NCBI GenBank assembly: GCA_016748015.1
Contig: JAAOMT010000503.1
Coordinates: 41,881-105,880, forward strand
Source of the DNA: Geosiphon pyriformis
Lineage: Eukaryota; Glomeromycota; Glomeromycetes; Archaeosporales; Geosiphonaceae
Direction: 5' to 3'
Length of the DNA stretch: 64,000 nt
Position numbers and translations under genes: made by a program. This document shows, one piece after another, positions 1 through 26,275 of this stretch. Under the pieces are notes generated by a model. That model was not told the origin of the DNA. It ran no database searches and was given only the letters and a program-made list of their open reading frames with translations. Every line of letters begins with the position of its first letter. The stretch's first letter is position 1.

Positions 1-2985
1 TGACATTCTTTGTGAAGACAATTTTTCTGTTTTAAAAGACACAAAAATGCAATCTTCTATTTTCGCCATTGGTTTTGTGGTTAAAGATGTCTTGGAGAAG
101 AACTGAGAACTTTGGCTAGTTTTACAAGACATACACAAAGCTTATGACTCAGTTGGTTGGAAACATCTCAAGAGGAGTCTGGTCAGAATCAAAATATGTG
201 ACAAGTTTATTAGATTTTTTGGTAGTATTCACAATGGTCATGTCAACAGAGTGATGATGGACTTTGGTTTGACTGATGGGTATCTAGTTCATGATGGGCT
301 GAACCAGAGAGAAGTTTTCTCGCCTCTTTTTTGGTGTATATTCTACAATTCACTTTTATGTGAGATTAAAAAACAGAAGAATATGAGTGATTACAGATTG
401 AATTCCCATTTTATCTCCAAAAATGGTCAGGTAGATCCTCAGGCTGGGTTCACTTCTTTTCTCATTGCCAGTGCTTTTGTAGATAATATGATTTGAATTG
501 GTAACAGCCAGGCTGCTACCCAACACATTTTTGATGTTGCTAGTGAATTTTTCAGGTTTAATAACATTTCCATAAACACCAACAAAATGGTGGCCATCCC
601 TATCAACTGTCAGGTTACAAACCCCAATCTGACTATTTGTGGCTCACCTATTTCTATTGCCAAAAGAAGAAAATTTCACCAATATTTGGGTATCTTCTTA
701 TTAACTGATGACTTGTCGAAGTCCAGCTTGGCTAAGACTCATTCAGATGTATGGTTCTTTATGAATCTTGTTTTGAGGAAGGCGGTTTTGGACAAACAGT
801 TTGTGTATTTGGTATCTGCTGTCCTTTTTTCGATTATTTGTTACAGGACTCAGTTCAGTTATGTTCCTTTCAGTGTGTGTGATAAGTGGAATGCCATGGT
901 TCACAAGGGCTTGAAGTCGAAGTCTGGACTCCTGCTTGATTTTTCCAGTGATGCACTTTATCATCCCTCTTTGTATGGTCTAAAAACTTTTAAACAGATT
1001 CAGGCTGAGAGCAAGTCAGCTTCTGTCATCTTATTTGCAAATTTTGCTGGGATTTTAGGCTGTTTATTCTCTTACAGATCTTATGATCTCCAGGTTTTTA
1101 GTTGGTGGCCCCAATACCCACTGCAGTTTCCAGCTCATATTAGTGTTTGTTCTTCAAATAATTTTTTAGCCAGGGTGGTCCATGTTTTTTCTGGATGTGA
1201 TTTGTCTCTGGACAATTCTCTGGCTGGTGCTTTTCATTTTTATGGTGACACTTCTATGTCTCTTGTTCTTGGTAAGCATTATTTCTTCAAATGTGTCTCT
1301 TCTCTCTGTCACTATAGTATTGCTTTTATGGAGCAACTCTGTAACCAAAATGGAGTTGTTTTTATTTAGAAGACTTTTAAGAGGTGAAAGTGGTTGGATC
1401 CATATGGCCCAGTTCCTGTATGGTTTAAGACTTCTGTCTGCTTTCTTGATGGTGTAATGTCTCCTCCTGTTAGCTTGCTGCTTGTGAATGTTTGTGCTTC
1501 TTCCGATATTTTGCAGTCTCATGTGTTTGATTTTATTGGCAAAAGTTTGTTGCGTGTTGATGTTGCTCATCTTTCTGTGTTCACGGATGGATCTTTAAGT
1601 GGCTTGAGGACTCTTAATATGAAGGCTGGTGCTGCTGCATATTTTAAAGATGTGGATTTGGGTTTGGGAGTTAAGGTTTCTGGTTTGGTTTCATCTACAA
1701 TAGTGGAGTTGCAGGCAATTGCTTTGGCTCTCGAATGTGTTCTCCCCTCTTGTTCAGTCAATCTGTTCTCGGATAGCCAGACAGCTTTGAATGCATGCAG
1801 ATCTGAATCTTCTTTATTCAGACCAAACTTCAGGAATCAGTGTTGGGTTGAACACTACCATATAGTAAATATCATTTGTCAGAAAAATTTAGATGTTAAT
1901 TGGGTTAAAGTCAAGAGACACTCAGGTGTTTTGGACAATAAGCAAGCTGATGGTTTTGCTAAGGCTGCGGCTCTGTTGGATTGGCGCTTGCCACATTTGG
2001 TTAATGAACACTTTTTGAAGACTGGTGATACTGTGGTTTTTGGTAATTTTAGACATTTTGTTTGTGATATTTTCTGGTCAGTTCTTTGTGCATGTTGGAA
2101 GGTTGGTTTTGGTTCCCAGGTTGTGACTAATTGTTTTCATGCTGATATTGATTGGTCCAGGTTGTTTTTGGTTTGGCACCCAGATTTCCACCTGGCTGCT
2201 GGCTTTACTAGTTTGCGAACTACTGACATCTGTTCATATTTTATAAAGGCTTTGCACTGCCAGCTCCCAGTTGCTGTGCACAAGCATCTTTATAATAAGT
2301 ATTATCCTAGTGTATTATGTTTGTTTTGTGGAGATGTTGAGGTTTTGGACCATGTTTTTTTTTGCTTATTTGATGCTGATGATCAGGCTTGTTTAATAAA
2401 TGCTTATGCCTCTGCTTAGGAGATGTGTTCTGAGTTGTCTCATTTGTTCTTGTGTGTTTCACAGTTGCTGGCTACTTGTGCTTCTGATGCAGCTATTTGT
2501 ACTGCTCTGTGTAAAAGCTTTGTTTTCATTAGTTGGTTTAATAAGGCTGTTTCTGTTTTCAAAGATTCTAAGGTTGCAAGTCTAAATGTTGCTAATTTTG
2601 TGCACAATTTGTGCATCGCTTTCTGGGAAGATTTTTGGCTAGTCCACACCAAGCACTGGGCTTTTATGGAAAAAAGAGGGCTAATCCCACATGATGGCTC
2701 CATTTCTGCCTCAATTTCTGGTCCTCTTTTGGTGCTTTCATCTGGTATTGTTAGATTGCTGGGTATTGTCAAAGCATATGGTGTGGGTTTTGGGTTTTGT
2801 AAATCTTGTCTTTTCTTTTCAGGTATCAGGGACATAGTTTCTGTTCATATAGGTGTTTAGTGTTGTTTTGATTGGTCTGAGTGGCTAGTCACGTGTAGAA
2901 AATGCATGATTTATACTTAGTTTAGATTATTTGTATGAAGTATAGTATTAGGTTGCATTTGAACTTTACTTGTTAAAATAAAAAA
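1..2985 (+). mobile_element. LINE retrotransposon copy A, 5' part outside window
   Basis: Non-LTR retrotransposon entering from the left edge and running to an A-rich 3' end near 2985. It carries the second half of ORF2 (reverse transcriptase, RNase H, C-terminal zinc motif), then a roughly 125-bp 3' untranslated tail (2861-2985) ending in an adenine-rich stretch. The same tail closes copy B at 26146-26275, which fixes the element end. It is one of the two least decayed members of the family here, with one continuous reading frame broken only by stop codons. The combination of RNase H and APE endonuclease (seen in copy B) resembles the fungal Tad/I group; that clade assignment is inferred. 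The 5' boundary and any target-site duplication cannot be seen. Confidence 0.9.
2..2860 (+). pseudogene. LINE ORF2 fragment: reverse transcriptase, RNase H, zinc motif, with nonsense codons
   Basis: A single frame runs from the window edge to 2860 with stops only at 104, 494, 1367, 1391 and 2417. The RT palm is visible (Q-x-E-V-F-S-P-L-F-W near 305-335; F-V-D-N at 476-487). RNase H lies at about 1575-1990 with F-T-D-G-S, E-L-Q-A and F-S-D-S-Q-T-A. A CCHC-like motif C-L-F-C...H-V-F-F-C sits at about 2325-2370. Four stops look like Trp codons changed to TGA or TAG, and the one at 104 looks like CGA to TGA. The RNase H loop reads K-R-H-S-G where K-G-H-S-G is usual, and the second catalytic Asp of the RT is Asn. 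All of these fit C:G to T:A change. The copy is almost certainly dead. Confidence 0.9.
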
Positions 2986-3880
2986 AAAACAATTAAAATA
3001 AAAAAAATTTTTTTTAGATAATTACAAATTATATATATAAACAGTAATATTTTAATTTTATTTAATAATAAAATTTTTAAATAAAATTTTTTTAAATTAT
3101 TTTTCTTAAATAAAATTCACAGTAAGTTTTTGTTCTTATTTTATAAAAACTTTGTATTGTTATTTGCTTATTGCTATTTAAAAATAGTTATATTATAAAA
3201 AATATTATAATGTTTTATGTTTTTATTGTAAGAAAATTAAATTTTTTGATTATTTTTTCATGTAAAATAAATTTTAATGTTTAAAAAAAATTGTTAAAAA
3301 TATGTGTTGTTTTGTAAAAATTAATATTAAATCTGTATTTATTATTAATTTGTATTTTATAGCTGTTTTTTTTATGTATATTTAATAATATATTATATAC
3401 TGCTTTATACAAAGATTTTGTTTTTAAAAAATAATATTTAAAAGTTTTATTTGTTTTTAGTAATATTAAAATTGTTGTTGATAAGATTATAAACTTGTTA
3501 TGTAATTTGAAAATAAGTTACTATAATAGAATATAATTAATTTGATTCAGATTTAAAATATTTTTAAAAAAAAATAATTTAATATTTTGTAATAATTTGG
3601 TGTTTTTTGTTGTTTGTAATCTATTATTATTGCTTTTTAATAGTATTATAAAGTTTTTTAGAATTGTTAAAATATTTGGTATTTATTTTGGTTTATATAA
3701 AATATATATATATTTTTTAATATTAATTATAATGTTTTTATTAAGATAAATTTGTAGTATTGTTTTAATTGGTCTAAGTAACTGATTATATATAGAAAAT
3801 ATATAATTTATACTTAGTTTAAATTATTTAGTTTAATGTATTATACTAAGTAGTATTTGAATCTTATTTATTAAAATAAA
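2986..3880 (+). mobile_element. Decayed 5'-truncated LINE relic of the same family
   Basis: Directly downstream of copy A, in the same orientation, lies an A+T-rich sequence that aligns by eye with copy A from about 2230 to its 3' end. Segment 3138-3270 matches 2250-2370 (zinc-motif coding), and 3751-3880 matches the family 3' tail with nearly every C read as T and many G as A. No open frame of useful length survives. This is a head-to-tail pair, an old relic abutting a younger copy. The left boundary is approximate. Confidence 0.75.
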
Positions 3881-6800
3881 AATAAAAAAATATTTAATAT
3901 TTAATAAAATATATTAGCCAATTATATATTAAAGTTAGTAAAATAATATATTATTAAAAAGTTTAAAAATATTAATAATAATATTAATAATAATTAAGAA
4001 AAAGAATAAAAATATTTAAAAATACCAGAATATTTTATATTATTAAAAAGATATATATATAAAAATAGTATTAAAAATAAAAAGCCATTTTTAATTTTAC
4101 TTTAACAAATTAGTTTAAGTTTTATTTACTTAAATAATTTTAAAAATTTCACTTTTTAAATTAATAAAAATTATTAAATAAAAATCAAAAAAATTACATA
4201 ATATTTATTTTATTTAAATTGCTTTTTAAACAATTAATATTAAAAAAAACATACAAAAATTTTAATATATTAAAAACAATAATTTTTAATTATAATTATT
4301 AACAAATATGATTTTTTATTTTTTTATTTTGTTTATTTATTTATTTATTTTGTTAAACTAATTAATTAAAAAATAAATATTAAAATTATAATATTATAGA
4401 TAATCTGATAAAAAATACAAAAATAGACATAAAATTAATTTATTAATAATTAAATAATTTATTAAAAAAAAAATATATTGATTGTTATATTATTAAAAAA
4501 TTTTATTATTTTTTAATATTATTAATGCCAAATTATTATTTATTTAGTTGTTAATAAAAATTATTAAATTTTTAATAAGCTTATATATTTTCAAAATATT
4601 TTTTATATTTTGAATTATTTGTATTGTTAAACTTAAAATAAAATGATCAATTTTATGTTAATTGTTTTTTTTTTAATATTTTATAAGTGAAACCCAAATA
4701 CCACCTAATACATTAATTATTTAAAATAGTTATTTTATAGTAAAAATTAAATTTTTTATAAAAATTTTTAACTATAAACTTTTTAATAGTATATAGTTAT
4801 TTTGCTATAAAAATCAACTTTTTTACAAAAAATTTCAACTGTAAACAACTTAATAATATAAAAAAATAAAATAAAAATAAAAATATATAAAGAAAATATT
4901 TTTTGTTTAAGTTTAGAATTAACTAAGTTGTTATTAAAATTGGTAGTTAATTAATTTTAAAATATTTGTCAAAATTTATAAATTTTAACCAATTTTATTT
5001 TATTTGTAATATCTAATTAATTAATATATTTTATTTAAAGTAAAATATATTTTTTTAAAAAAAAAAGCCTTTTGGTTTTTTTTGGTTTAAAATTAATTAT
5101 CAAAAACAATATTAAGCTTTTTTATATAAAATTTACATCTTAAGTTTTTTTAAATATTATTATATAAATTAAATTTATTAAATTATTATTATTATTATTT
5201 AACTTTTAAAATTGCAAAATTTTTTGTGGTTTTTATATTTAATTTTGTTTTATTGTTATTATTTTTTATAATGTTTTTTTAAAACTATTATAAATAATAT
5301 TAATAAGGATTAATATTTTTTTTTAATTAAAAAAATAATTGATTCAAAAAATAATTTTAAAACCAAACTAATAAATTTTTATTTGGTTATATTGCTTTTA
5401 AAATTAATAAGCCGGTTTTTTAAATATATAATTACTATTTGCTTTATTTTTTAATTTTTTAATTCTGTTTAATAATTAAAAAACTTTAATTAATAGTGTT
5501 GTTTTAAGTATTAAGATTTAAATTATTTCGTTTTAAATTATAAGATATTTCTGTTTTTTTTTTTAAGATTTTGACAAAATTTGTAATTGATTACAAATTT
5601 TTACAAGTTGTTTTATTAATATAAAATTATATATAAAAGCTACTGTTTTTTTGGTTATTTTTAAAAAAAACTGTTTAAAAATGTTAATTTTAAGAAAATA
5701 TAATATAAATAGATTATTTAATAATAATATGTTTAATATTAATTTAAAAATATTTTAATAAAAATATTTTGCTAAAATAATAATTTTTTAGAAGTTTTAA
5801 GCTTTTAATATTAAATTTAAATACAAATAAACCTATTATATAATTAACTAATTTGGTTTTTAATAATAATAATAATAATAATAATAATATAAAAAATTCA
5901 TATTTAATAAATCTGCTTTAATAAATTTAATTTAAATTAACTTAAATAATTAGTTATATATAAAAAACACATGAATTATAAGATTTTAAAATAACAAATT
6001 TTTTAAATATTATTATATAAATTAAATTTGTTAAATTACTTTTTTTATTATTTTAAAAATTGTAAAATCTGTTAAAATTTTTTAAATGTGTTGTTATTAT
6101 ATTTTGTAATAATTTATTTTAATATATTTTTAAAATATTTTATAAAATTGTTATTTTTTAATTTAAGTTTTAATAATTTGTAATAATATTATATTATTTA
6201 ATTTAAAAATCAGTCTTGTTAACTTTAATTTTTTAAAAAAAACAATTTTAAAATTTTTTTAAATTAAATTAATTATTTTGGTTATATGTAAAATAATATA
6301 TAAACTGTATTTAATTTAAAGCTTTTAATTATATTATACTCATTAATATAAAAAAAATTATTGTTTTAAAAAACATTTTGGTTATAAATAATAATATTGC
6401 AAATGTTAAAGTTTAAAAAAATAAAAAAAACTTGTTTTTTTAAATACTTAAATTTAGAATTTAGCTTTAGTTAAAAAAATTTTTATTTGTTATTTTTTAA
6501 AAATATAAAGTTCTTTTAAAATACTTATTTGTTAATTGTAATAATATATTTAACAATATATTAAAACATATTTTTTTTAATAAAATTAAGAATACTGTAA
6601 AAATTTTAATCAACACTTTTAAGTATTTTCTAAATTTAAAATAATTTTAATATAATTATAGCTTATTGAATTAAAAAAAACCTATGTTAAATATTTAAAA
6701 CTATTAAGACTAAATTTAGCAATAATTAGGTTTAATCTTAACATATGTTTAAACATATATATATATATATATTGTAACTTGTTGGATCACACTTTGTTAA

Positions 6801-7115
6801 AACATTTCAAATATTTTTGCGAATTTCAAATCGATTCAAGATAAAAAATAAAAAATTAAATTTTATTGAATTGCCAAAAAATTGTTCTATAAACATTTGC
6901 TATTTTGACAAAATGTATTTGCACATTTTTTAAGATTCAAATATCTTTTTTTAGGATTCTATAAAGCAATTACAGAAAAATAAAATTATAAAAAATCTTT
7001 CTAATTACTCTTTGACACGAAAACCTAAAAACCAGATTTCTGATTCTTTACATAACAATTGTCCAGAATTTATCATAAAAACCCTTCAATATGTCCTTGA
7101 ACAGGGGATCAAAAA
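3881..7115. other. AT-rich block, probably decayed transposon sequence
   Basis: About 3.2 kb of almost pure A and T with no gene-like open frame. A short segment at 4686-4740 resembles the LINE 3' tail read on the minus strand, which suggests at least one inverted relic. An AAT repeat lies near 5864-5890 and an AT repeat near 6754-6772. Normal composition returns at about 6775, just before the sirtuin gene. The rest could not be assigned by eye. Confidence 0.5.
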
Positions 7116-7180
7116 ATGCCCGATTCTGCAGCAAATTCTACTTTAGCGATTGTTCCTCAAAATGTTCGATTTAGCCGAAT

Positions 7181-8065
7181 TTATCTAGTTTTTTGCCCTA
7201 TTGGCATGTTGGTGATATTTTCATCTTCTCTGAAAACCTTTTTGCCCTTTTTTAATTTGGGCTTAAGTGATTCTGTAAATCGGGGAAAGGAAAAGAATAA
7301 AGATTAATAAATATAAAGAATGGAGATAAAATAAAAGGTTCACATCATTGGAGAGATACTAACTCTGGAGATTTTTTCCTCTTAGCTCAGTATCCAAATT
7401 TTTTAAGGGTTTATCAAAATCTTGCCCCAGGGGCTCTGCACTTTCGTCTTCATGTTCCGGGTTGACTTTTTTGCGCCAAATCTTGGTATTCTTGATGGGT
7501 AGTTTGATAACTTTTGATTGTATTGTGGTTTGCCTTATAATGTTTGTTCCAAAATCGCACAATTTTTTAGGCTTCTTATAATTGTGTTCGGATTCAATCT
7601 GATCCTCTTGATCGGATTCATGCTTGGTACGCTTAAGACAATTTTTCCGAGGCCTTAAGGTGGTAACTGTGGGTGTTTGAAGAAGAGTTGTTTGTTTTTT
7701 GTCCAACCCGACAAATCTTTCACAGATCTCTGCCCATTTGTCTGCTTCAGCCAAAATATGATAATCAAATACTTCATTCCATTCTTTTCCAACATCCGAC
7801 ACGTTTACTAGAATTGCATGTCCTCCCTTCTCATGGACTGCTTGAGCCACCTTTTTTATTAAATTTTTTAGTCCATAGACTTTAAGACTGGTCCCGAGTA
7901 CTAGCAAAAAATCTGGCTTCTTCTTGAGATCAGCTTGAATACACTTTTGAACATGTGTTCCACGGCCATAATCCTCAATATCATTATAAAGCGTTATGTT
8001 GGGTTGTAAAGCTCCAACTTGATGTCGTCGTTTCCCTTGCGCTTTTCTTGTTGTCTCTTATATTG

Positions 8066-8100
<35 letters not shown>

Positions 8101-8805
8101 AAAATTCTCTCGTTAATAATTATCAAAGGGCATATAATTAAATAAAGCCAAGACTCAGTCTACGCTCCTACCACGTATTTCGCATTCCGGACATGTCGGA
8201 GGTTCACCACTTTTGAAAATGTCTGTGTGTTCATTTGTGAACTGAGTTGTATACCTGCAAATGTTGCAGAATACCTCGGCCATATTTCCATGCAGTTGAA
8301 CGGCTTCAAGGCCAATGATTGCCTCTAAATTATCTACATTTTGAGTATAATAACGTAATAGTGTCTTGTTTTCAGCGAGACGTTTGAAAAAACAGTGTGC
8401 TTTGGTCGGTTGGGCGTATGTGATTACGTTCCGTAGTTCCCCCATAAATGTGTAGAAAATCTTTGCCGTTCTATGGTTATTCAAGGAGACTCTATCAAAA
8501 AGCTGTTGGCCAGTGATTTTTTCGTTAGGAAAGCGTCTTTTGATCAGTTCGTGCAGCCCGTCTTTTGATCGGAAATCCTGTTTCAAAGACAAATTAAGTT
8601 GAGGAAAAAAGACCAAAAGTAAAAATAAAAAGGCGCGCGTCTTTTTTCTTTTACAATTTTCTAATCAAGACAACGGAATTACCGGAATTCCAGAACCGGT
8701 CGAAACACCTGCTCCAGTAACAATGATAATTTTTTTTGCACGATTAAGCAACCAAGAAAGTTCTTGGATTGTTTTATGGTTCTCGACAAGGGTTAATTTC
8801 TCCAT
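7181..8805 (-). CDS. Sirtuin NAD-dependent protein deacetylase, Hst3/Hst4-like
   Basis: Four exons on the minus strand: 8805-8683, 8577-8172, 8041-7364 and 7272-7181, giving 432 aa with phases consistent at each GT-AG junction. Visible motifs are GAGVSTGSGIP joined across intron 1 to DFRSKDGL (NAD binding), TQNVDNLE (119-126), the catalytic His in QLHGN (His137), and zinc cysteines 145, 148, 170 and 173. The later GTSLKVYG motif and the basic, low-complexity C-terminal extension resemble the Hst3/Hst4 branch, which in yeasts removes acetyl from histone H3 Lys56; the subfamily call is an inference. Intron 2 holds a GAT/ATC trinucleotide run. If the last intron is not spliced, the protein would end at 7359 after a few more residues of exon 3. 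It lies in tandem downstream of the complex I gene. Confidence 0.9.
8066..8096. repeat. Trinucleotide microsatellite (GAT)n in a sirtuin intron
   Basis: About ten units of a GAT/ATC repeat inside intron 2 (8042-8171) of the sirtuin gene. Length is likely to vary between nuclei or strains. Confidence 0.85.
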
Positions 8806-9264
8806 AACAATTCAGTAAAAAAAATTATTTTTAAAAGTTATACGAATAAAGGTACGAACTGATAGCGTGGTAGTGTGGTAGTTGAATAGTTTTAGTTTTT
8901 CTTTAGAGGGATAAATAGTTCTACGAAAGCAAAAGTGCCACGAGAAGGTATCCTGCGAGGAAGTTAGTTAGCAATAGACAGGACGCGTCTTGAAATTTAT
9001 TCAAGTTCCATAATACAGAAAATAATGCTAGACGATCTTTCAGATTATCGATATCGTTAGCCTAATTATTATTTATCGTTTTTTATTGAATAAGAGGTGC
9101 AAAAGGTTTTGTTTACAGAATTCCTGTATACCCAATTAATATGACTAGTTAAACCAACAAAATGAGCCAATAGTTAAATGAATTAATAAAGAGGCTCAAA
9201 ATTTCCCGGTTAAAAATAATTACAAGAGTATAATAATTTTTTGAATCATTCACTCATTTAGAAA
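8806..9264. other. Intergenic region between sirtuin start and NDUFV1 stop
   Basis: 459 bp between two minus-strand genes. It must hold the sirtuin promoter and the NDUFV1 3' end. No further coding segment or recognisable element was seen. Confidence 0.6.
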
Positions 9265-11987: not shown

Positions 11988-12035
<48 letters not shown>

Positions 12036-12743: not shown

Positions 12744-12780
12744 GATTATTATTATTATTCTAATTATTATTATTATTCTA

Positions 12781-12873: not shown

Positions 12874-12875
<2 letters not shown>

Positions 12876-14965: not shown

Positions 14966-15652
14966 ATTTCAGGATTTTAAAAAAAAAAAAAATTTCATCA
15001 GATTAAATCAGATCAAAAAAGTTATTCATCAATTTGAACAGATTGTTTGTTCCTTTATTTCCTAAAAGAAATTCTTATAATCTTAAAAATATCATGATCA
15101 ACTCACAATTAGTTAAGAATATATATATTATTTTTATTTATTAAAATATTAATTGTTTTGAACTCGGCGAATTCTTTACTACTAAATATTTTATTTGGTT
15201 AGCAAGAGTTTCAGATAAGTTATTTTTTTCTTATAACGAATAAAGTATAATCAAGAGATTTCAATTTATTTTGTTTAAGTTTTCTTTATAATCAATAACA
15301 GATATTATTTTCATATTTATAATAACCTTTTTTGTCATATGAATCTCATTAATTAAATTCCTTTTAGGAGTTTTTTTTCTGTCCAATATTACTTTTTTAA
15401 AAAAAAAAATTTATGGTGCAAAGACGAAAGAATCATTTATAATAATTTAAAAGGTTTTTCTAATTAATAATTCAATATCTTTTGTATTTATTATTATTTT
15501 TTTCTATTAATTTTAAAGCAAATGTGTTTTTTTCAGATACCAATTATATCAAAATATAAAATCTTATTATTTAATCATTTGTTAATTAAATCTAATTTGA
15601 ATAAAGTTAAAATAAGATAATATAAATAGTAATACTTGATTTATATTATAAA

Positions 15653-15691
<39 letters not shown>

Positions 15692-15887
15692 TAATTAATT
15701 AATTTGGAAAATATATTTAAGAATTAAAGTTAATATTTCAGTTACAATAAAAAATTCACTGAGAAATTTTAAAAAATTTTTTGCATAAAATGTTTTTTTT
15801 TTAATTAATATATTATTATAATAAATACAAATTTCTACATTTCAATATATATATATGTGCATAAATAGAATTTACGAATAAAAAAAA

Positions 15888-15929
<42 letters not shown>

Positions 15930-16054
15930 ATTTTATTAAATCCATTTTGATATCTATTATTTTCTCTTGTTGCACATTTCTTTAAAATAAAAAAATACTA
16001 AAAAGACTCTTGATTAATTCAATAGATAATTGATTGGTGTACTTTATATCATTT
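14966..16054. other. Divergent intergenic region between lipase-like and F-box genes
   Basis: About 1.1 kb, AT-rich, between two genes that point away from each other, so both promoters should lie here. It holds ATT runs at 15654-15690 and AAT runs at 15890-15928. No coding segment was seen. Confidence 0.65.
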
Positions 16055-17695
16055 ATGATTAAGTGCCACTCAAAATCTGGCATCATCATGCATAAAACAT
16101 GTAACGTGAGACCCAAACAATTCAAAAAAATCCCCATGCCACCTTTTTCCTTCTCTGACCGTCCCGCCTTGGCGAACTACCCAAAGAACGCTCCCATACC
16201 AAATGCAGCCACTTGTTTACCGACTGAGTGTCTTACCCAAATAATCGAAAATTTTACAAGAAACGATTTTGCCTCTCTTCATACCGCACTTTTAGTTAAT
16301 CGACACTGGTGTAAGGTAGCTGTGATTTATCTATGGCAGGCCCCATTAACAATAGAAAATCTTGCTTTAAGACGTCAAGAGAGACTGATTTCCGCTTATA
16401 TCAAGTCTCTTAATGATGATGAAAAACGACAGTTGATTGAAGAGAGTAAACTATCTCTACCAGAAAATTTAGGTGTTGGGAAGTCTACTACATTTAATTA
16501 CGCTTCCTTTTTACGAGACCTGGATATGGAAAAGCTATATAAATCGATCGAATTTTGGTGGGAGGAATTGCACAAGTTCGAGGAAAAAGTGGAGGATGGT
16601 GCCTCTACTACCCTTACACGATGTATTCCACAATCTACCCATAGAGTCAAGACCTATTATTACAATAGTAGTAGTAGTAGTAATGACGAAACCAGTGAAA
16701 GTGAGAATGAAAGCGAAATTGAAAGTGAAGGTGCTGGAGATGAGTCTCTCGCTCATTCCCATGACTATGAAGATCAAAATGAACAAACATCGCATTCACG
16801 ACATACCCACTCTCCAACTGGTAAAACTCTGGAAGAGATACAGGAAGACCGAGATAGAATTCAGCAAAAACGAGAACGAGATCGTGCTTTTCACGAAATA
16901 AAATCTAAACAAACTCGTTTAATAATGTTGGCGCTATGGCGACTTTTTTATCGATCGGCACAAATACATAGTTTTCGTTTTAATACTACCTGCGGTTTAT
17001 TTCCTTCATATTTTCGTATGTCTTCCATGTTGATACCCTCGACCCACCCACCAAATACGAAAGAATCAATGTTTTTTAGACGCATTCAAACTCTAGAGAT
17101 GGGTGAACGTACCCCGGAAGGGATGTTTAAATTGATTGCTGAACATAATTCCCAAGAAATTCAAACGATGAATGTTAAATTTCCAGTCACTGATGGAGGA
17201 GTCACTGATTTCGCAAAATTGGTCTCTATTCAACGTGCCCTTGCTCGTCTATCGCTGCACGGCTCTAACGGTGGTATGCGACAAATTGTTGATGCTTTAA
17301 AGCATCAATTATCTTCATTGGTCCGTGTAGATTTTTACAAGACACATATCACCCAATCATTATTGGTGGAACTTGGTCGAGCACCAAATTTATCAATCGT
17401 AGTGTTTGATCGATGTCGTGCTTGTTTCTTGCCGCATTGGAGACCAATGCCGAACAAGTTTGCATGGAAGTCATTAGAGAAATTAGTTGCTGTTGAAACT
17501 GATCTTCCTGATGAAATTTTGAAAAACATTATTGAGAGTGCACGGAATACTTTGGTTGGATTATGGGTAAAAACACATGAGGGAAGATTTGGTCAGATCA
17601 ACCAGAATATCATGAATTATGCCCGATCACTATGTACAAATATATCCAGTGATCCGGAATTGCAGCCTAGATTGCAAAGGTTGAATTTTGATTAA
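16055..17695 (+). CDS. F-box protein, intronless
   Basis: Uninterrupted frame of 546 aa from ATG 16055; in-frame ATGs at 16088 and 16136 are also possible starts. An F-box-like motif sits at about residues 55-95 (LPTECL...LVNRHWCKVAVIYLW), the Skp1-binding helix arrangement of SCF ubiquitin ligase receptors. A Ser/Glu-rich acidic segment follows at about 195-240, then a charged helix, then a Leu-rich C-terminal half suggestive of divergent leucine-rich repeats. Such single-exon F-box genes form large families in arbuscular mycorrhizal fungi. The substrate cannot be inferred. It is the only long single-exon host gene in the window. Confidence 0.85.
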   Translation: MIKCHSKSGIIMHKTCNVRPKQFKKIPMPPFSFSDRPALANYPKNAPIPNAATCLPTECLTQIIENFTRNDFASLHTALLVNRHWCKVAVIYLWQAPLTIENLALRRQERLISAYIKSLNDDEKRQLIEESKLSLPENLGVGKSTTFNYASFLRDLDMEKLYKSIEFWWEELHKFEEKVEDGASTTLTRCIPQSTHRVKTYYYNSSSSSNDETSESENESEIESEGAGDESLAHSHDYEDQNEQTSHSRHTHSPTGKTLEEIQEDRDRIQQKRERDRAFHEIKSKQTRLIMLALWRLFYRSAQIHSFRFNTTCGLFPSYFRMSSMLIPSTHPPNTKESMFFRRIQTLEMGERTPEGMFKLIAEHNSQEIQTMNVKFPVTDGGVTDFAKLVSIQRALARLSLHGSNGGMRQIVDALKHQLSSLVRVDFYKTHITQSLLVELGRAPNLSIVVFDRCRACFLPHWRPMPNKFAWKSLEKLVAVETDLPDEILKNIIESARNTLVGLWVKTHEGRFGQINQNIMNYARSLCTNISSDPELQPRLQRLNFD

Positions 17696-19030
17696 GTAGC
17701 ATTTAAGGTGGATTAAAAATATGTATGATCATGCAATCATTGTAGTGGATCAAAAATTACCAATTTTGGACAATTGGATTGATTATAGTTTTTAATTTAA
17801 TATTTGTTGTCACTTGTACAATAATACCGAGGCTTTATATATACATATATATATATATATTTGAAAATAATTCAACGAATAATACACGGTTGTATTTAAT
17901 TCACTCCTTTGAATTTTTTAGAAAAACATGTATAAGAATTAAGGTGCTGTTTTCCTCAATTTCATAAAGAAACTTTCTAATGATCGAAACAGATGCTTTT
18001 TTTTCAAAAATTTAATTAGGCAGCTAGAAGAAATACTATAATTAGATTGAAAGATGGGAAACATGCTTGCTTTTGGAATATTACTATTTGTTTTTTATTA
18101 GCAACCATTTTCAATAATGTCTTGTCAGTTTTTTTTTTTACATGTGCCTTTGATTAAAGATGATATTTCAATAGGTTGTAATTAATGTAATAATTAATTA
18201 TTGTTGCAATTTCAAAATTATATAAACACAATTAATTACAATCTATATAATACTATTTATTAAATTTGTAATTCTTTTTTTTCTTTCAATTTATTTTTTA
18301 TTTTTGGTTATATTATTTTTAAATTTTAATGTTTTTAATTCTTTTGATAAAATTATTTTTAAGATAAGTATTTTTTTTTTTCAAATTTTTTATTATTTTT
18401 CGAACTTTTTAACATCTGAATTTTTTTTTTAATTAAAAATTTAGTCAAAAAAAAAGTTTTTATATATTGTTTGTTTTATATTTATTGGTAAAAAAAATTA
18501 AAAATTTTATCAATTGTTTAAATTATTTAAGACCAAGTCTATTAATAACTTTAAAATCAAAAATATAATTAACAAATATATAAATATTTTTTGTAATTAA
18601 TTAAAATTTAAAAAAAATTTCTTTAAATTATAAATAATAATATTGTTTTAAACTTTGTTAAAATTAAGTTAAAAGTTAATAAAATTATCATAAAATAAAT
18701 ATAAAAGCACAAAATACTTAAATTTATATTTAATATTTATTAAGTTTTAAAAATAATATAATCAGTTTTTTTTTAATAAGTATTTAATTTGTAAAAAAAA
18801 TTTTAAGCTTAAAAAAAAAAATAATTAAATTATTATAATTTTTAAGTTTTATTATAAAAAAAAAAGTTTTTATTAATGCTTAATTAATCTAATTAAGACA
18901 ACAACAAAAAAAATTGTTTAATTTAAATTTCTATTTTTGTTGTTGGTTTTATAATTAAAAATATTTAAAAAAAATGAAAAAAATTTAATTTGTTTTGTTT
19001 TGTAAAATATAAAAAAAACTTATAATTTTT
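17696..19030. other. F-box 3' region grading into AT-rich block
   Basis: The first few hundred bases have ordinary composition and must hold the F-box transcript end, with an AT repeat at 17836-17862. From about 18250 the sequence is nearly pure A and T, like the other decayed transposon blocks. No gene seen. Confidence 0.55.
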
Positions 19031-19405
19031 TTATTAATAAATATTTAATAAATATAGTTTAATTACTATTTAGTATATATAAACAAAAATAAATATTTAT
19101 AATTAAATATAACTTACATATTTATTATATATAATTAGATATTTAAACTAATTAAAACTATATTATACATTTATTTTAATATTTATTCTATTATTTAAAT
19201 TAAAAAAAAAACATATATTTACTATATAAACCAAAATTTATTGCAAAAACTTTAATAATATTAAGCATATAAATTACTTTATCAAATAAACTACTAAATA
19301 AATCAGGTAAATTATCAAAAATAAAGAGATTATTACTAATTAAATTTTTTTTTATTGTAATTTTATATTTAAATCTATATAATTACATTTTTTTATAATC
19401 TATTA
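19031..19405 (-). mobile_element. Truncated minus-strand LINE relic
   Basis: Read on the minus strand, 19170-19031 matches the family 3' tail (compare 26741-26870), and 19400-19200 matches the coding end of ORF2 just before the tail in copies A and B. The relic stops where LINE copy B starts on the other strand, so copy B probably inserted into it or beside it. Strongly depleted in G and C. Confidence 0.65.
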
Positions 19406-19511
19406 TTAATTATACAATGAAAGCTTGGAGTTGTTAAAGAGATAGTCTTCTTTATCCTTTTTTCCTTTTGTTCCTTTCATTATTTCTTCAAACGTATCTC
19501 TATTTGTGCAT

Positions 19512-21469
19512 ATGGATCTAGTGGGCTTTTCTGCTGGCACTTCGAGTTTGAATTTGGCTGGGTTGGAGTTCTGGTCTGACAGCAAAAAAATTAAAGCACG
19601 CATTGAGAGTATATACTCGCATAGTCTTTCATACAAGAAAATGAAGTTGCCTGGTGTCTCTGGTAGTGTTGTGAACTCATTGGATGGCCTACTCTCGGTG
19701 GGTATACTACATGGTGATGGTGTTGGGCTGCAGAGATCTTGGGGAAGTGAGATAGATAGTGAGAAAGTAGGTGTTAGTGAAGTGTTAGATGCCAAGAATT
19801 TGGAAAACATAGTTGCTAAAGAGACAAGTTACATGGATCCCAACACTTCCGAGATTGATGAAATAGAAGACGATGCAACTCTTAGAAAAATGCAAACAAG
19901 AACATTTGTTTTGGAATGGCCACCAAAGACAATTTTTTTCGCAAGCATGAGTGACAATGATACTGAATTGGTGTTTCCTAGAGCTAATTTGCTAGATCCA
20001 ATTGGCTGCCGCCTGTGATTTCATGTGTTTTAGAACATCACACCTTTGAACCAGTTAAATTGTTCATCTTGGATGTAGAGTTGTCAAATGTGTCTGGAAA
20101 GACTAATAGTAATAAGCTGATTTCAATTAAAAAAATTTTTTATCGAGTGGATGGTTTTGGAGGAGCTTCTACTTCCTCAAAGTTTTCTGAGATCATTAGA
20201 TCCTTTTTTACTTTTGAAATCAGTTTGAATAAGGCTAGAGAATTGACTGTCAATAGGAAGATTTTAGTTAATGATAATCTGAGAAAAGCAAATATTTGTT
20301 TGAATCAGAAGATAATTGTTAAGGAGATTCTGGTTAATCTTTTGAAAGTGGCTGTGGAATCAGTTTTTTCCAAATTTGGCAAGATTATTTCAATCAAAAT
20401 GCAGCTTATTGGCTTGTGGCAAAAAGCTTTAGTGGAGTTTGATTCATCGGAAATAACTAGCTCAGTTGCGTCTATGTGATCTGTTCTTATGGATAAGGAT
20501 TTGGTTCATGTGGCATTGGTTGTTGAAGATAAACAAATATGAGTATCAAAGGATCAGCATTGAGCCTTGCTTTATATACTGCCTGTGGGAACCACGGCTC
20601 ATGATCTTTCTGATTTACTAATGTCTTATAATAAAAAGACGTGCTTCATTGGTTACAATCCAAATTCATATGTTTGTAATAAGTGTGCAGTTGTTTGTTT
20701 TGAAAATAAGGCTGCCAAGTTGGCTGCAACTGGTTCAGTCCCAGTTTTTAGGGGTGTGAATTTGTGCTGGACTGGTCTTTCTTTGGCTTGTTGTGCAATT
20801 TGCAAGCATTTTGGTTATGTTGGTGGTGATTGTTTAGTGGGTGAGAATTCTGGCAGTCATAGGAGACGAGTGGTAACTGATTAGGATCGTGTTTGTTTGG
20901 CTGGGATTTATAAGAAGAAATTGGTTTCTGTTGCTCATCTGGTTTCTTTTGGTGGCAAAACATGGACCCAAATTGCTGGTGGCTCTTCCTCTTATGTGGT
21001 GTCTTCAGGTCTTCATGGTGCTGATGCATCCTCTGGTGCAAAGGTCCTCTTGATAGATTTTTTTTCTCGTGATGTTTCTGGTCTAAATGACCATTTGGCA
21101 GTATTGGAATGCTCCTTAGAGCTTTTGGCTGATCAAGTCTCTGACATTCTGAAAAGATTGAGTGGTGTTGAGTTGGTGCCATTGGCAGCCTTCTCCCATG
21201 TCTTTCCATTGAAGGTTTCTGCATTTGATGTTCTAATTTCTGGTTTGAATATGGCTGTAGACACTTCATTGCCCTCTTCCAACTCTTCTCATCTGGTTTC
21301 TGATGGCCCTATTGCTGAGCTTGGCCCAAGTAGTTCAAAGATTCTGACCTCTAAGATCAGTGGTCTGGAATCTAAGTTGTTAGCTTTGGAAGCATCAGTT
21401 GGTTCTGTGTTGGCAAAATTGGATCTCTTGTGTTCTGGTTCAGGTTTGGTTGTATCTTCTTCCTCTTAA
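19512..21469 (+). pseudogene. LINE ORF1 (gag-like nucleic-acid-binding protein), broken
   Basis: Starts at ATG 19512, changes frame near 20010, then runs to 21469 with stops at 20477, about 20540, about 20558 and 20882. The middle part (about 20300-20460) has RRM-like character. A zinc knuckle lies at about 20790-20835 with three cysteines in place, C-x2-C...C, but Tyr (TAT) where the conserved His (CAT or CAC) should be, a single C to T change. The C-terminal part (about 21060-21430) is Leu-rich and probably coiled-coil, as expected for ORF1 multimerisation. Most stops look like former TGG or CAG codons. It would bind element RNA if intact. Confidence 0.8.
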
Positions 21470-21483
21470 TAATTGAGTTGGTC

Positions 21484-24400
21484 TGGAAATTTGCTACATG
21501 CAACGTTTGGGGTATCAATGTTCCTGTAAAACAAGCAGATGTTGTTTGCTGACATGTGAATTCTGGGAATATGGTGTTTTTTATTACTGAGACCAAGTTG
21601 AGATCTTCTATTGGTTCATGGATCAAAAATGAATATGATGGTGTTCGTATCTTCATTTCTGGTTTGGAGGTTGGTTTTCTTAGCACTGGTGTTGCCATTA
21701 TCATGAACAATTCTTTGGCTTGTTATGTTTCTAAGATTGAGGAGGTGCCTGGCCAGATTGTTGTGGTACGGCTTTTGTTTAAAAACAAGCTTTCGGTTTC
21801 TGTTGTTGGTTTGTATGCTGGTGCCTCTCCCAGTGTCCGTTTTGGTCAGGCTTCTGAGGTTAACTCTTTTATTCCTAAGGCTGCTAATTCTAGCACTTTT
21901 GTCATTCTGGGCAGGAACTTCAATGAAAATAGATCTGGGAGGAGTGCAAGCTTCAAGTTCTGCTCGAGTTTGGGTTTGGTTAATTCGTTCGCTGGTCATT
22001 TTTTAGTTGGGGCTCCTACATAAAATAATTCTAGAGGGGTTGAGAAAACTATTGATTTCATTTTTGTCAGTGAAAATTTAGCTTCTGCTGTTGCTAACCA
22101 TGGGTTGAGCTCTGTCTCAGGCTTCTTCGACACTGATCACAATGCTGTTATGGTTTTAGTCGGATTGGGTGGGCTTTTGGATGTTCATTTAAATAGTTTG
22201 CACAAGCATGCTAACAAAAATTGTTGGAAGTTTAATATCAAGGATGTGGATGAAGCTAAATGGTCTTGTTTCAGAGACTGCGCCTCTGCTGCAGTTTTAG
22301 ATATTATGGATAGTTTTAGTGCTGCTGCTGCTGATTGTGATTTGGACATTATGTGGTTTCTGTTAGAAAAGGTTTTGGTGGATTCTGCAGATGTGACATT
22401 TTCCCAGCGTTGGTTTAGTGAGTTTTATTGTTCAAAAAATAAACAATCTTTTAAATTTCTGGGTTTGGAGTTGCTGATTGTCAAAATTGTCAAAAAATTT
22501 GACTCAGCTGATACCTCTAATTTTGACTGTTTGGTGAGGAAATGGTCTATGTTGGATGTTGATAAGGCTCTTGTGTTGGTAGACATGGTTGATTTTGGTT
22601 GGAAAAAAACCAACATTCTTAAGTTCTTATTGGTTGTCAGAAGAGAGTACAGGAAATCCAAGATGTATGAATCGAAATTGGCATAGAAGACTGCTATCAG
22701 AGAGGCTATTAAGAAGTGCATGAAAAAGTTTTGCTCTAACAAGGGCAGCATGATCAGAAGTGTTTTAGATCAGCCATTTTGGAAGGTAGTATTGGATTAT
22801 TTAGTGGTTGATAATGAGCTTGTTTTGGAGCCTGAGAAGGTAAAGTTGAAAATTGACAGGATTATGAAGGGTTGGACAAGGAAACAGATGGTGTCTTCAG
22901 TGCTGTCTAATCTTTGAGCTCATCAATATGCCCCTTTGGTCTATGTCAGGGATGATGCTTTTTCTGGTGTTATGGATACTGTTAGTTTAAGTGAGTTGCT
23001 CCTGGTCATTGGCAGTCTTCTTGATGACAAAGCTGCTGGGTTATCTGGCATTACTAATGAACTTTGAAAGCATGGTGGTGAAAAGATAATGGAATGCCTC
23101 TTGGTGTTGTTGAATGTGTGTCTGTCTGTTGGTTCTGTGTCTGCTTTGTGGAAGAGAGCTTGGGTTTTAATGATTTTGAAACCTTATGATTGGGATGAGG
23201 TTCTAACAAATACTCATTCTATTGCCTTGATCGAAATGGCCAGAAAAATTCTTTCCAAGATTCTTTTGGACAGGATTTTGTTTGTGTGCAGCAAGTTTAA
23301 CATTCTCCATAGTGACAATTTTTCAGTGCTAAAGGGTACTTCCACTCAATCTCCTGTGTTTGCTGTTGAATCAGTGGTGGAGAATACTCTTGAAAAAAAT
23401 AGGAAACTTTGGTTAGTGTTGCAGGATATGCACAAAACATATGATTCTGTTGGTTGGCACTACTTGAGAACTAGCCTGCGTTGTATCAAGATGTGTGACA
23501 GATTTGTTGAATTTTTTGGTGGGATTCATGAGAACAGGGTTAATAGAATGATGACTGATTTTGGTCTCTTAAATAGTTACAGGGTACATGATGACCTTGA
23601 TCAAGGTGAGGTCTTTTCGCCTCTTTTTTGGTATATCTTCTATGACCTGCTCTTGTGTGAGGTTAAAAGACATGAACATTTGTGTGGATATCATATTAAT
23701 ACAAAGTTTGTGGCGAAAACTGGCAGGATCAAAAATAATGGTGGGATGTTTTCATTCTTTGCTGCTGGTGCTTTTGTGGATAATACAATTTGGGTTAGAG
23801 ATTGCCAATCTTCCATGCAGTATGCTTTGAATATTGCTAGTGATTTCTTCTCTATCAATGACATCTCTATAAACAATAAAAAAATGGTGGCTATACTAAT
23901 TAATTAGGGTGTTAGATTTGCTTCTTTGAGTATAAGTGATCAGCTAATCTCTATCACCAAGAAGGGCAAAGCTCACAGATATTTGGGTATTTTTTTATTA
24001 ACTGAAGGGTTTTCTAAACCAAGTTTGGCCAAGGCTCACTCAGATGTTTGTTTTTTTGTCCACACAGTGCTAAGGAAAACAATTACGGATAAGCAATTTC
24101 TTATTTGGTCTTGGCTGTTTTACAGCCCATTGTTAGTTACCAAACACAGTTCAGTTTTGTTTCATCTGGTGTTTGCTGCAAGTGAGATGTTTTGGTTAAG
24201 AAGGGCTTCAAGTCCAAGGCATATTTACCCTGTGATTTCCCTGATATTGCTCTGTATCACTCTTCTCTATATGGCTTAAAGTTTTTTAAGCAAGTGCAAT
24301 CTGAGGCAAAAGTGGCCTCTTTGATTTCCTTTTTTAATGACCCTAGCATCCTTGGTTGCTTGTTTAAACATAGGTGTTTGGACTTGCAGGTCTAGGGGTA

Positions 24401-26148
24401 GGCTCCCTTAAATCCTCTTCAAGCTCCTGTCAAGCTGCGTGTTAGTCCAGTGAACAATTTTTTGGTGAGTGTAATGAAGATTTTTTTGAACAATAGTCTC
24501 TCTTTGGTGAACAACCTCCTTAATGCATTTCATCATCCTGGTTGTTTTCCAATGTCTTTGATTCTTGGGGAGTCTTTGTACTTTGATTCTGTTCGGTCTC
24601 TTAAATGTTATAATGTTGCTTTTGGAGATTGGATCTTCGATAAAAAGAGTGTTCTGTTGGATTGAAAGACTTTTTGTCATTGGAAATGGTTAGATCTATG
24701 GGGCCCAGTGTCTCTTTGATTTGTGGCTGCTTCTAAGTATTTGCTGAATAAGAGTTTCTTCTCTTTTGGTTCTTCTGGCACTGCTTATTCTTGTGGTTTG
24801 AACATTTTGGAGTCTGATGTGTTTTCCTCTGTGTGGGATGGTTTACATGGGGTCTGGTCTGGCTGTTTTGAAATTTACACAGACAGGTCTTTGATGAGTG
24901 CTGGTTCTGCTGATGTGTCGAGTAGTGCTGCTGCATATTTTCTGGCTTTGAATTTGAGCATTGGTGTCAGAATTTGTGGCCTCTTATTTTCTACTATGGC
25001 TGAGTTGTAGGCTGTCGCTCTTACTTTGGAATGTGTTCCATCCTCTTGTTCAGTGTTCTTGTTTCTTGACAGTCAAGCTGCTATTGATGCGTGTGTCTCT
25101 GAGTTGTCATCTGGGGTTCCAGATTTCTGCAACTGCTGTTGGGTCAAGTATAAGCATGTTTTTAATTTGATTAAGGATAAGGATCTTAGTGTGAGTTGGG
25201 CCAAGATCAAGGGCTATGCTGGTGTTTCTAGTAATATAAAAGCTGACAGATTTGTGGATGAGGCTGCTGGCTCTTTTTATGTTTTACCAGTAAGGGTCTG
25301 TGAATGTTTTTTGGTGGCTGAAGACACTGTGGTTTCAGGCAATGCTTGTCACTTCATCAGGAATTTATTTAGGTCTGTTTGTCATGCTCGTTGAGAAGCT
25401 GGTCCAGGCCATAATGTGGTTTTTGTTGAAATGTTGAGGAATTTTGATTGGGTTGCTTCTGTGAGGGTCTGGCATTCTGACTCACACTTGCTTGCTGGGT
25501 TTACCAGCCAAAAATCAGTGGATCTTTATATGTATTTGATGAAAGCTTTGCATAGGAGGTTGCTGGAAAAGATTGTATGATAGATGTTATCTAAGTGTTC
25601 AATGCTTGTTGTATGGGAAGGTGGAATTGCCTGACCATGTTTTCTTTTGTCCACAAGATGCTCACACTTGTGAGAAGATTCTATTAGAGGCTTCTGCACA
25701 TTGGGTTTCTCTGATTGGCGTTTGCGATCTGTCTTCTTTTTTTGTTCTTCTGAATCTTAATTCTTGCCTTTTGAATGTTGGCAGATATTCGGTTTTATGT
25801 AAGGGATTTGTGATGAAAAATTGGTGTGCTAAAGTGGCTGGTGTTTTTGATGATGTTAAGAAAGCTTCTTGTGTAGTTGTTGATTTTGTAAGGTTCTTGG
25901 TTGAGTTGTATTGTTCTAGGGTGTAGTTAATTAGATTTAAGTTTAGGTCAGATATGGAGAGAGCTGGCTTGGTCAGTGACAATAACTTGATATTGGATTT
26001 ATCACATGATATGTCTTTTGTGCTTTTTGACAGTGTGATTAGGTTGCTTGGCATTGCTGAGTCTTTTGCTATAGGTTTTGGTTGTCACAGGCCTTGCCTT
26101 TTTTTTTCGGGTTTGGATGGTAGTCCTTGTATTTGTGTTAGTGCATAG
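21484..26148 (+). pseudogene. LINE ORF2: APE endonuclease, RT, RNase H, zinc motif, broken
   Basis: Endonuclease at about 21490-22170: A-T-C-N-V, I-T-E-T-K-L, G-R-N-F-N-E (usual G-R-D-F-N), I-D-F-I-F-V and D-T-D-H-N-A-V. RT at about 22900-24000 with D-Q-G-E-V-F-S-P-L-F-W and F-V-D-N-T-I-W (usual F-V-D-D). RNase H at about 24880-25270 with Y-T-D-R-S-L, a TAG where copy A has CAG (about 25008), and L-D-S-Q-A-A. C-terminal zinc motif at about 25600-25650, where one Cys is Tyr (C-L-L-Y). The frame shifts near 24105 and again near 25560, and nonsense codons include those at about 21550, 22021, 22684, 22915, 23065 and 23905. Nearly all differences are C:G to T:A. Inactive as written. Confidence 0.88.
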
Positions 26149-26275
26149 TGTTGCCTTGTTTGGCCTAAGTGGCTAGCCACATGTAGGAAGTGCGTGAGTC
26201 GTATTTAGTTTGAGCCACTTAGTCTGGCTCTATGTACTAGATAGTGGTTGGGCTTCACTCATTAAACAGTTAAAA

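Follow-up and report, generated by a model that had tools for sequence, protein, structure and literature searches.

Two LINE copies and their relics

The window, i.e., the whole 64-kb stretch of DNA analysed here, contains inactivated LINE copies of two families. Copy A (1..2860, + strand) is the RT and RNase H part of an element whose 5' part lies upstream of the window, recognised by its ORFs, an RVT_1 match below the Pfam cut-off and RNase_H. Copy B of the second family (19446..26242, + strand) was delimited from ORFs, RVT_1 and genomic copies, with an uncertain 5' limit and a 3' end taken from alignments. The single frame of copy A is interrupted at 104, 494, 1367, 1385, and 2417, as judged from its ORFs and the codons of its relatives, and that of copy B by C>T stops and frame changes. 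Because the two copies are only about 61% alike in their alignment, their direct comparison gives no direction of change; it was dropped as a test, and each copy was instead compared codon by codon with 29 other copies aligned per family, which supply the direction.

A first-pass annotation of this DNA had read most stops of copy A as former TGG codons, and this holds for TGA at 494..496, TAG at 1367..1369, and TAG at 2417..2419 (all + strand), where 26, 24, and 23 of the 29 relatives, respectively, have TGG (one row has N at the last site). A further such stop had been placed at 1391, which is itself TGG; the change is real but lies at 1385..1387 (TGA, + strand; TGG in 25 of 29 relatives). 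The stop at 104 is also real, but its proposed origin from CGA is ambiguous and cannot be asserted, with CGA found neither among the commonest 8 codons at this site (27 of 29 rows of relatives) nor in the full codon list of the core alignment (30 rows, 6 gaps). For copy B, TAG at 25008..25010 (+ strand) replaces the CAG of 24 of 29 relatives and lies opposite CAG (1712) in copy A, and the TGG at 23791, shared by 26 of 29 relatives, lies opposite the stop at 494; both correspondences had been pointed out before and are placed by the offset of the A–B alignment rather than by codon alignment.

Other LINE remnants in the window are more decayed. AT-rich relics lie on the + strand at 3586..3916 (GC 0.118), 31209..31923 (GC 0.171; 145 of 261 aligned C:G positions now T:A), 32010..32758 (GC 0.121; 166 of 265), and 49877..50780 (GC 0.164; 164 of 300), and on the − strand at 19068..19343 (GC 0.105), 26689..27929 (GC 0.167; 255 of 441 aligned LINE C:G positions), and 29173..30008 (GC 0.112); another relic at 52496..52706 (+ strand) has a GC content of 0.213 with 17 of 44 aligned positions changed. 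Pooled over the relics, C:G>T:A changes affect 926 of 1605 aligned positions (58%), compared to 116 of 2686 in the reverse direction, and decay goes on to 15% GC. Dead LINE copies end as AT-rich deserts between genes.

Substitution spectrum of the genomic LINE copies

The best 40 of 2031 and the best 40 of 2497 candidates were scored and 30 loci kept from each, so that our sample is not random but consists of the loci that best match copies A and B of the window. Terminal-branch spectra were obtained for 30 A and 29 B copies, with the partial match L066 left out of every full-length B spectrum; L067 and L068 were also left out of the per-copy strand and clustering analysis, and L069–L072 entered only the core-region run of the terminal-branch spectrum. 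We further defined “close” sets of 16 A copies (without L009, L010, L011, L013, L019, L020, L022, L024, L027, L028, L030, L033, L034, and L035) and 25 B copies (without L043, L054, L066, L067, and L068). Copy A of the window (L009) falls outside its close set because it has no close sister; it shows C>T plus G>A at 67 of 371 positions, reverse transitions at 44 of 705, and transversions at 18 of 1076. L033, L043, and L054 are rich in transversions, with clustered C>T changes in the latter two, and are probably mosaic copies or affected by local misalignment.

These spectra confirm the C:G>T:A inactivation of LINE copies, and more strongly than a single window could reveal. Terminal branches of family A carry 2141 transitions and 142 transversions, an excess far beyond chance that rules out what the first-pass annotation had named as refuting its view, i.e., substitutions showing no transition excess. 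The full A set has 1634 C>T, 486 T>C, and 140 transversions on terminal branches (878, 175, and 35 in the 16 close copies), and the full B set has 2479, 602, and 528 (2049, 376, and 117 in the 25 close copies). Per context, C>T rates are 0.080 at CpA, 0.090 at CpC, 0.073 at CpT, and 0.239 at CpG in family A, and 0.102, 0.121, 0.092, and 0.310 in family B. All contexts are thus dominated by C:G>T:A (8% to 10% at non-CpG and 24% to 31% at CpG sites on the terminal branches of both families), including CpT besides the CpA, CpC, and CpG contexts noted earlier, compared to less than 1% for C>A plus C>G. According to bootstrap intervals, the CpG rate is about 3 to 5.7 times that of other contexts, and TpC sites mutate about twice as fast as other non-CpG sites; this 5' T effect is not clearly seen at CpG.

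CpG decay of methylated transposons is known from vertebrates, plants, and Basidiomycota, and CpG is the most mutable context here as well, but most changes fall on cytosines outside CpG. The excess of non-CpG C>T over C>A in family A (0.080 versus 0.0017) argues against simple CpG methylation decay, in line with the earlier proposal that CpG deamination alone is insufficient. In Microbotryum, transposons undergo TpCpG-biased C>T mutation (PMC4352252); as far as that report describes it, this bias resembles our LINE spectrum in involving CpG and a 5' T, but here mostly non-CpG sites are mutated and the 5' T acts at these rather than clearly at CpG.

The TpC preference could be the work of an AID/APOBEC-type cytidine deaminase that edits LINE DNA, e.g., as cDNA at insertion. 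Editing of single-stranded cDNA would be one-sided, though, and our test for one-strand bias found that in every copy listed the rates of C>T and G>A differ by less than a factor of two, with strand runs being rare. Together with the strongest effect at CpG, where a 5' T makes no clear difference, and the heavy decay of old relics, this strand symmetry leaves such editing very improbable.

Changes of C>T are mostly unclustered along the LINE copies, and private C>T rates are alike at the three codon positions. In counts pooled over copies, there is a mild deficit of stop-making C>T changes, and transversions favor third positions, so that selection acted during part of the history that was counted. 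We grouped copies into clades by hand from nearest-copy identities, which takes in 21 of the 30 A copies and 25 of the 30 B copies, and C>T counts are even among copies in 5 of 6 clades tested, at levels that vary by clade. Differences between clades, which we take as the record of lineages that kept moving, show only 2 to 4 transitions per transversion in 14 of 16 clade pairs and, in family A, an excess at third positions. Still-moving LINE lineages are thus largely spared and show the C>T flood only weakly. Neither a normal excess of transitions nor selection favoring synonymous substitutions fits private C>T changes that are similar over codon positions when the between-clade differences are not.

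Genes and introns compared to LINE DNA

Gene regions have CpG observed/expected ratios of 0.85 to 1.10, compared to 0.14 to 0.16 for the window's LINEs and 0.05 to 0.42 for the deserts, and across 30 A-type copies this ratio ranges from about 0.5 down to 0.02. TpC depletion is strong in the deserts and mild in the LINEs, and none was seen in the composition of gene regions or of 12 introns of two genes. Both footprints are largely missing from the composition of genes, these introns, and the fourfold sites of the two genes in this one strain. That neutral single-copy DNA might share the spectrum, the other outcome that the first-pass annotation had regarded as refuting, is therefore disfavored by this single-strain comparison of composition.

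For a close gene duplication, we compared two copies of a methyltransferase gene that are separated by about 31 kb and differ by 50 transitions and 22 transversions over 1145 aligned bases (89% to 90% identity); the transitions lean 31:19 in favor of the first copy having C:G. This one close duplication examined escaped the C>T flood. The distant gene pair L002/L006 is too diverged to serve as a control (transition:transversion counts of 41:69 and 10:4 in pieces of 68% and 79% identity). Searching the assembly for COX1 as a mitochondrial-insert control gave no match, and the window's F-box gene as a gene-family control matched only itself. Rfam gave 0 matches on the 64-kb window, and neither an AMF primer motif nor a near-universal fungal SSU rRNA motif has an exact match in the assembly, from which rDNA is probably missing. 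Comparing one NDUFV1 exon with solved structures did not place the genome taxonomically.

An AT-biased mutation pressure acting genome-wide and without repeat specificity would suit a window of GC 0.265 whose deserts (GC 0.10 to 0.13) come close to the GC content at which the LINE spectrum would equilibrate (0.14 to 0.16). It is disfavored in this single strain by the GC content of 12 introns (0.27) and of the fourfold sites of two genes (0.31 and 0.35), the lack of TpC depletion in genes and introns, the spared gene pair, and the ordinary third-position pattern of between-clade LINE differences, and seems highly improbable. Base-callers can misread methylated C, and the long contigs suggest long reads, so that methylated cytosines read as T might be considered as an assembly error; this is hardly credible given the clade-specific levels and relics that have 58% of C:G converted and match the composition of the deserts.

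RIP-like hypermutation and its possible cause

Resident LINE copies suffer a hypermutation resembling repeat-induced point mutation (RIP), and we consider it about an even bet (probability roughly 0.5) that its cause is heavy methylation of their cytosines in every context. After insertion, a copy would be marked as a repeat or as heterochromatin and would acquire methylated cytosines at CG as well as non-CG sites. Deamination of methylated C, either aided by the methyltransferase or not corrected by repair, would then replace C:G by T:A at a rate far above that of ordinary mutation. Both strands would be hit, most strongly at CpG and with a 5' T preference of the non-CG component, and source lineages still transposing would largely escape; dead copies, with their frames broken, would approach the 10% to 13% GC of the deserts. 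The mostly even accumulation within clades, the clade-specific levels, and the decay to 15% GC are explained by methylation-linked decay no less well than by RIP, and the C5-methyltransferase genes of the assembly also suit this reading. The 5' T preference is not an obvious product of methylation and counts against this reading, as do the uneven counts in clade B4 (p 0.003) and the borderline ones in clade B3 (p 0.052).

In a purely passive form, all-context methylation, spontaneous deamination, and poor T:G or U:G repair in heterochromatin would suffice without a dedicated mutator. Even counts at clade-dependent levels and the prominence of CpG suit this version, as does a single marginal match to the UDG superfamily, though from an exon-by-exon search that may miss genes. 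Passive deamination of 5mC usually gives a smaller excess over ordinary mutation, and this form is therefore strained by spectra like that of clade A1, whose 4 copies have 454 C>T changes alongside 10 private transversions; as it also leaves the 5' T preference unexplained, we regard it as improbable.

Strict RIP, in which a RID-type enzyme scans duplications premeiotically and mutates all copies, here in contexts unlike those of Neurospora, would account for the RIP-grade spectrum with C>T in all contexts (the sister pair L045/L047 differs by 367 transitions and 5 transversions at 0.913 identity) and for the sparing of moving lineages. RIP is usually indicated by TpA/ApT above about 0.89 and (CpA+TpG)/(ApC+GpT) below about 1.03. 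The LINE copies examined fall outside this range with 0.67 to 0.76 and 1.32 to 1.56, and values inside it (1.07 to 1.12 and 0.79 to 0.88) are confined to the deserts and copy A's AT-rich tail. Against strict RIP also stand the missing CpA preference in both families, the gene duplication that was not hit, mostly even counts that differ by clade instead of being hit-or-miss among copies, and relics decayed well past the identity that RIP needs. The first-pass annotation had advised searching for a RID/DIM-2-type methyltransferase, and C5-methyltransferase genes are indeed present in the assembly, among which RID could be told from other classes only with RID references; a stand-alone methyltransferase in two copies, for which a scan of two upstream pieces gave no match to BAH, would suit RID. 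One paper states that RID is present in the AMF clade, but a sexual stage is not established in the presumed lineage, for which another paper argues asexuality. Overall, strict RIP seems unlikely, if less so than passive decay. The resemblance to RIP that had been remarked on thus stands for the C:G>T:A flood, but not for RIP proper: the LINE decay is RIP-like, not canonical RIP.

Like RIP of Neurospora and other Ascomycota, which depends on RID, the decay floods repeats with C:G>T:A on both strands, destroys their frames, and leaves AT-rich stretches of dead transposons with genes largely spared. Unlike it, TpC and CpG are preferred over CpA, one gene duplication was spared, and the lineage presumably lies outside Dikarya, with any role of RID and premeiotic timing being putative. 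In Rhizophagus irregularis, to which this genome is presumably linked, transposons are silenced by CG methylation and small RNAs, with low mCG in old degenerate copies (PMC8647823); most TE families are described as highly CG-methylated. Methylation silencing would be the parallel here, but C>T decay is not among the results in the portion of that study considered. Published totals for this fungus (32.5% to 49.5% of all cytosines methylated, with CG sites making up 13.8% of cytosines) exceed what CG sites seem able to hold, which by our own reading implies non-CG methylation.

RIP signatures are reported to be absent from Gigaspora margarita, as cited in PMC8647823, and a 2025 kingdom-wide k-mer screen reported RIP-like signatures in Ascomycota only. 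RIP signals outside Dikarya have been proposed for Entomophthorales with stated caveats (PMC10515909), there from dinucleotide indices and here from direct polarised substitution counts with controls; our literature search found no report of comparable decay in the lineage to which this genome appears to belong. If our preferred reading of methylation-linked hypermutation is right, the AT-rich, gene-poor compartment gains a testable origin, and the age of RIP-like defence and sex in these fungi become testable. True RIP, driven by RID and acting on the transposons of an arbuscular mycorrhizal fungus with a TpC/CpG specificity peculiar to it, is doubtful, slightly more so than strict RIP as such. 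It would make RIP older than Dikarya and the AT-rich compartment a RIP graveyard; with known RIP being premeiotic, recent changes would also speak for cryptic sex in fungi whose asexuality has long been argued. Direct substitution counts reveal a RIP-grade LINE spectrum that composition screens could miss, because LINE copies fail the RIP indices and fully decayed ones resemble other AT-rich non-coding DNA.

The two LINE copies and their substitution spectrum

The assembly containing the window (124.7 Mb, 406 contigs) gave no match to COX1 or to exact rDNA motifs in our search. The window itself has a GC content of 26.5% and carries LINE copy A (1-2860; a reverse transcriptase match below the Pfam cut-off plus an RNase H match) and LINE copy B (about 19446-26242; a reverse transcriptase match), whose proteins we take to be Rhizophagus-like. 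These proteins, the window's low GC and its mitochondrial complex I and PDH genes, and an assembly of about 125 Mb make an arbuscular mycorrhizal fungus the likely source. The two are only about 61% identical and belong to separate large families, with the nearest other genomic copy at 79% identity to the A query (among the best 40 of 2031 candidates) and at 89% to the B query (among the best 40 of 2497). The stops that the first-pass annotation had attributed to C:G to T:A changes do exist in the sequence, except that one lies at 1385 instead of 1391. Five of the six named changes are backed by relatives, 23-26 of 29 of which have TGG or CAG at the site, while the sixth (at 104) is ambiguous. 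The A-type copy L036 has private C>T changes, yet its frame is still open over 1165 codons, and its family may be active now or have been so until recently.

The counts show a strong, LINE-associated and nearly strand-symmetric C>T process that is active on resident copies. For terminal branches, 30 copies of each family were aligned (one, L066, was excluded from the B counts), and a change was scored in a copy only where its three nearest copies share the trinucleotide. Family A has 2141 transitions vs 142 transversions, with C>T at 719/8977 CpA, 374/4165 CpC, 488/6680 CpT and 74/310 CpG sites, compared with 33/20132 for C>A and 8/20132 for C>G. Family B has 3081 transitions vs 528 transversions, the latter raised by a small number of copies that are mosaic or distant (non-CpG C>A 0.0052, C>G 0.0021); its 25 close copies show 2049 C>T, 376 T>C and 117 transversions. 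Parallel C>T in the neighbouring copies is read as T>C, so the T>C figures probably represent maxima. An unpolarised count of copy pairs of at least 0.87 identity gave median transition:transversion ratios of 14 over 62 pairs in family A (minimum 1.8) and 22 over 68 pairs in family B (minimum 10.2), exemplified by L045/L047 (367:5) and L060/L061 (462:7). Three copies (L033, L043 and L054) have many transversions relative to their nearest copies and are probably mosaics, formed by gene conversion or template switching, or locally misaligned.

C>T is about 3-5.7 times as frequent at CpG as in other contexts (intervals over four sets 2.86-5.66), and non-CpG C>T is roughly twice as common after T (ratio intervals 1.88-2.24 in A, 1.70-2.07 in B). 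At CpG the effect of a 5' T is unclear (TCG 25/126 vs ACG 22/54 in family A, 15/41 vs 5/19 in family B), and this gives a hint of two components.

Timing of the changes

The C>T changes in LINE copies arose mostly neutrally and after insertion, at similar rates of 0.129, 0.096 and 0.109 at codon positions 1, 2 and 3 (G>A: 0.090, 0.097 and 0.095). Speaking against full neutrality, stop-making C>T is depleted (79/1364, compared with 577/6236 for synonymous and 1146/13573 for non-synonymous C>T), and the transversions, few in number, are commonest at the third position (53, 49 and 164 at positions 1, 2 and 3); some of the history therefore went through functional copies.

In clades chosen from nearest-copy identities, private C>T, T>C and transversions number 454:81:10 (A1), 366:59:27 (A2), 373:88:21 (A3), 452:46:20 (B1), 495:102:60 (B2), 551:120:31 (B3) and 438:55:35 (B4), with private C>T at positions 1/2/3 of 180/115/158, 142/116/108 and 144/115/114 in A1 to A3. 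The C>T level varies between clades. Within them, private C>T per copy is Poisson-like in five of the six clades tested (p 0.05-0.83; B3 0.052), and clade B4 departs from Poisson (p 0.003). Among 57 copies (30 A, 27 B), only L010, L035, L050 and L059 exceed a strand-run |z| of 2, and only L016, L018, L065, L043 (6.3) and L054 (15.5) a clustering z of 2.

Differences between clades, on the other hand, arose largely while the elements still transposed, and the moving lineages look as if they followed an ordinary mutation pattern. By unanimous within-clade states, 14 of 16 clade pairs lie at 1.9-2.4 transitions per transversion (e.g., 202:103, 247:119 and 107:47), exceeded by two closely related pairs (51:9 and 30:5). 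Since unanimity removes more C:G than A:T sites, majority states were also counted, giving 2.8-4.2, and 7.5-11 for the two close pairs. Between-clade differences peak at third positions in family A, the only family split by position. Because exchanging C and T at a third position leaves the amino acid unchanged under the standard code, C>T flooding of the whole genome would be expected to have left its mark at these sites.

AT-rich deserts and controls outside the LINEs

Eight decayed LINE pieces in the AT-rich intergenic deserts, 5263 bases together at a GC of 0.147, match LINEs at 56-69%. Across their best alignments (4291 positions overall), 926/1605 LINE C:G positions are now T:A and 116/2686 A:T positions are now G:C, and the equilibrium GC of the LINE spectrum is 0.14-0.16, with desert GC at 0.10-0.13. 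The AT-rich compartment is therefore at least partly LINE sequence decayed by the C>T process almost to completion, and from its composition we infer the same for the remainder.

Genes in the window include matches to mitochondrial complex I and PDH genes, and a stop-free frame of 553 codons (16034-17695) with a weak F-box match, single-copy in the genome by DNA search. Twelve introns (838 bases) of two genes, named NDUFV1 and PDHA from profile matches and our own reading, have a GC of 0.27, a CpG observed/expected ratio of 0.72 and no TpC depletion, and the fourfold sites of these genes have a GC of 0.31 and 0.35. The CpG ratio is 0.85-1.10 in gene regions, 0.14-0.16 in the window LINEs and 0.42, 0.05 and 0.09 in three deserts. 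The share of C after T vs after A is 0.04-0.07 vs 0.13-0.17 in deserts, 0.34-0.35 vs 0.42 in LINEs and 0.31-0.32 vs 0.30-0.31 in genes. At their usual thresholds, RIP indices are passed by the deserts and failed by the LINE copies.

A further control is the duplicated stand-alone C5-cytosine methyltransferase gene L001/L005 (copies about 31 kb apart, near 788 kb and 821 kb of G000:C318), which over 1145 aligned bases at 89-90% identity shows 50 transitions and 22 transversions, in one partly coding pair, with the C:G in the first copy at 31 transitions and in the second at 19. L005 looks degenerate (gaps, broken frames) and seems free of a C>T flood.

Candidate mechanism and methyltransferase genes

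All-context cytosine methylation of resident LINE copies is the best candidate for what drives C>T, because CpG is most mutable, non-CG sites are also hit and the presumed relative R. irregularis has a 5mC content seemingly beyond the capacity of its CG sites. Deamination would be either enzyme-assisted (RIP-like), which the size of the C>T excess favours, or passive with weak repair. The even spread of changes and the very late decay speak for a process that is ongoing and independent of homology. A genome search for the UDG superfamily returned only one, marginal, match; any true reduction in uracil or thymine-mismatch repair would be relevant to how C>T arises.

In the available text of the sources, R. 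irregularis TEs are generally highly CG-methylated (PMC8647823), LC-MS gives 32.5-49.5% of its cytosines as methylated, and AMF carry DNMT1, DNMT2, DNMT5, DIM-2 and RID (both PMC8298701). This 5mC level lies far above what the CG calls of PMC8647823 apparently allow and seems to exceed CG-site capacity, going by the portions available. A 2026 review, in its available part, counts Glomeromycota among fungi with 6mA nearly replacing 5mC (PMC13297926), and the sources are at odds. For G. margarita, available passages describe RIP as undetected (PMC8647823, citing Venice et al.) and, from other authors, a genome without RIP (PMC7082362). The literature covered also includes PMC10515909, PMC7862722, PMC7928374, PMC10246852, PMC11414155 and PMC12543289. 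Searches of largely open-access literature turned up no account of transposons in Glomeromycotina being hypermutated by C>T.

A PF00145 profile search of the genome gave 10 matches, among them the two-copy stand-alone methyltransferase on C318. BAH had no match in two pieces upstream of this gene, and a missing BAH is the expected state of RID/Masc1 in the available text of PMC4352252; its apparent absence would thus fit RID/Masc1, as expected, but falls short of proof. A BAH match adjoins the C355 methyltransferase, and C327 has a weak one below the cut-off. The best solved-structure relatives of the C327 and C96 gene pieces and of the C318 gene include DNMT1 chains, and the C307 gene is, by its motifs, presumably DNMT2.
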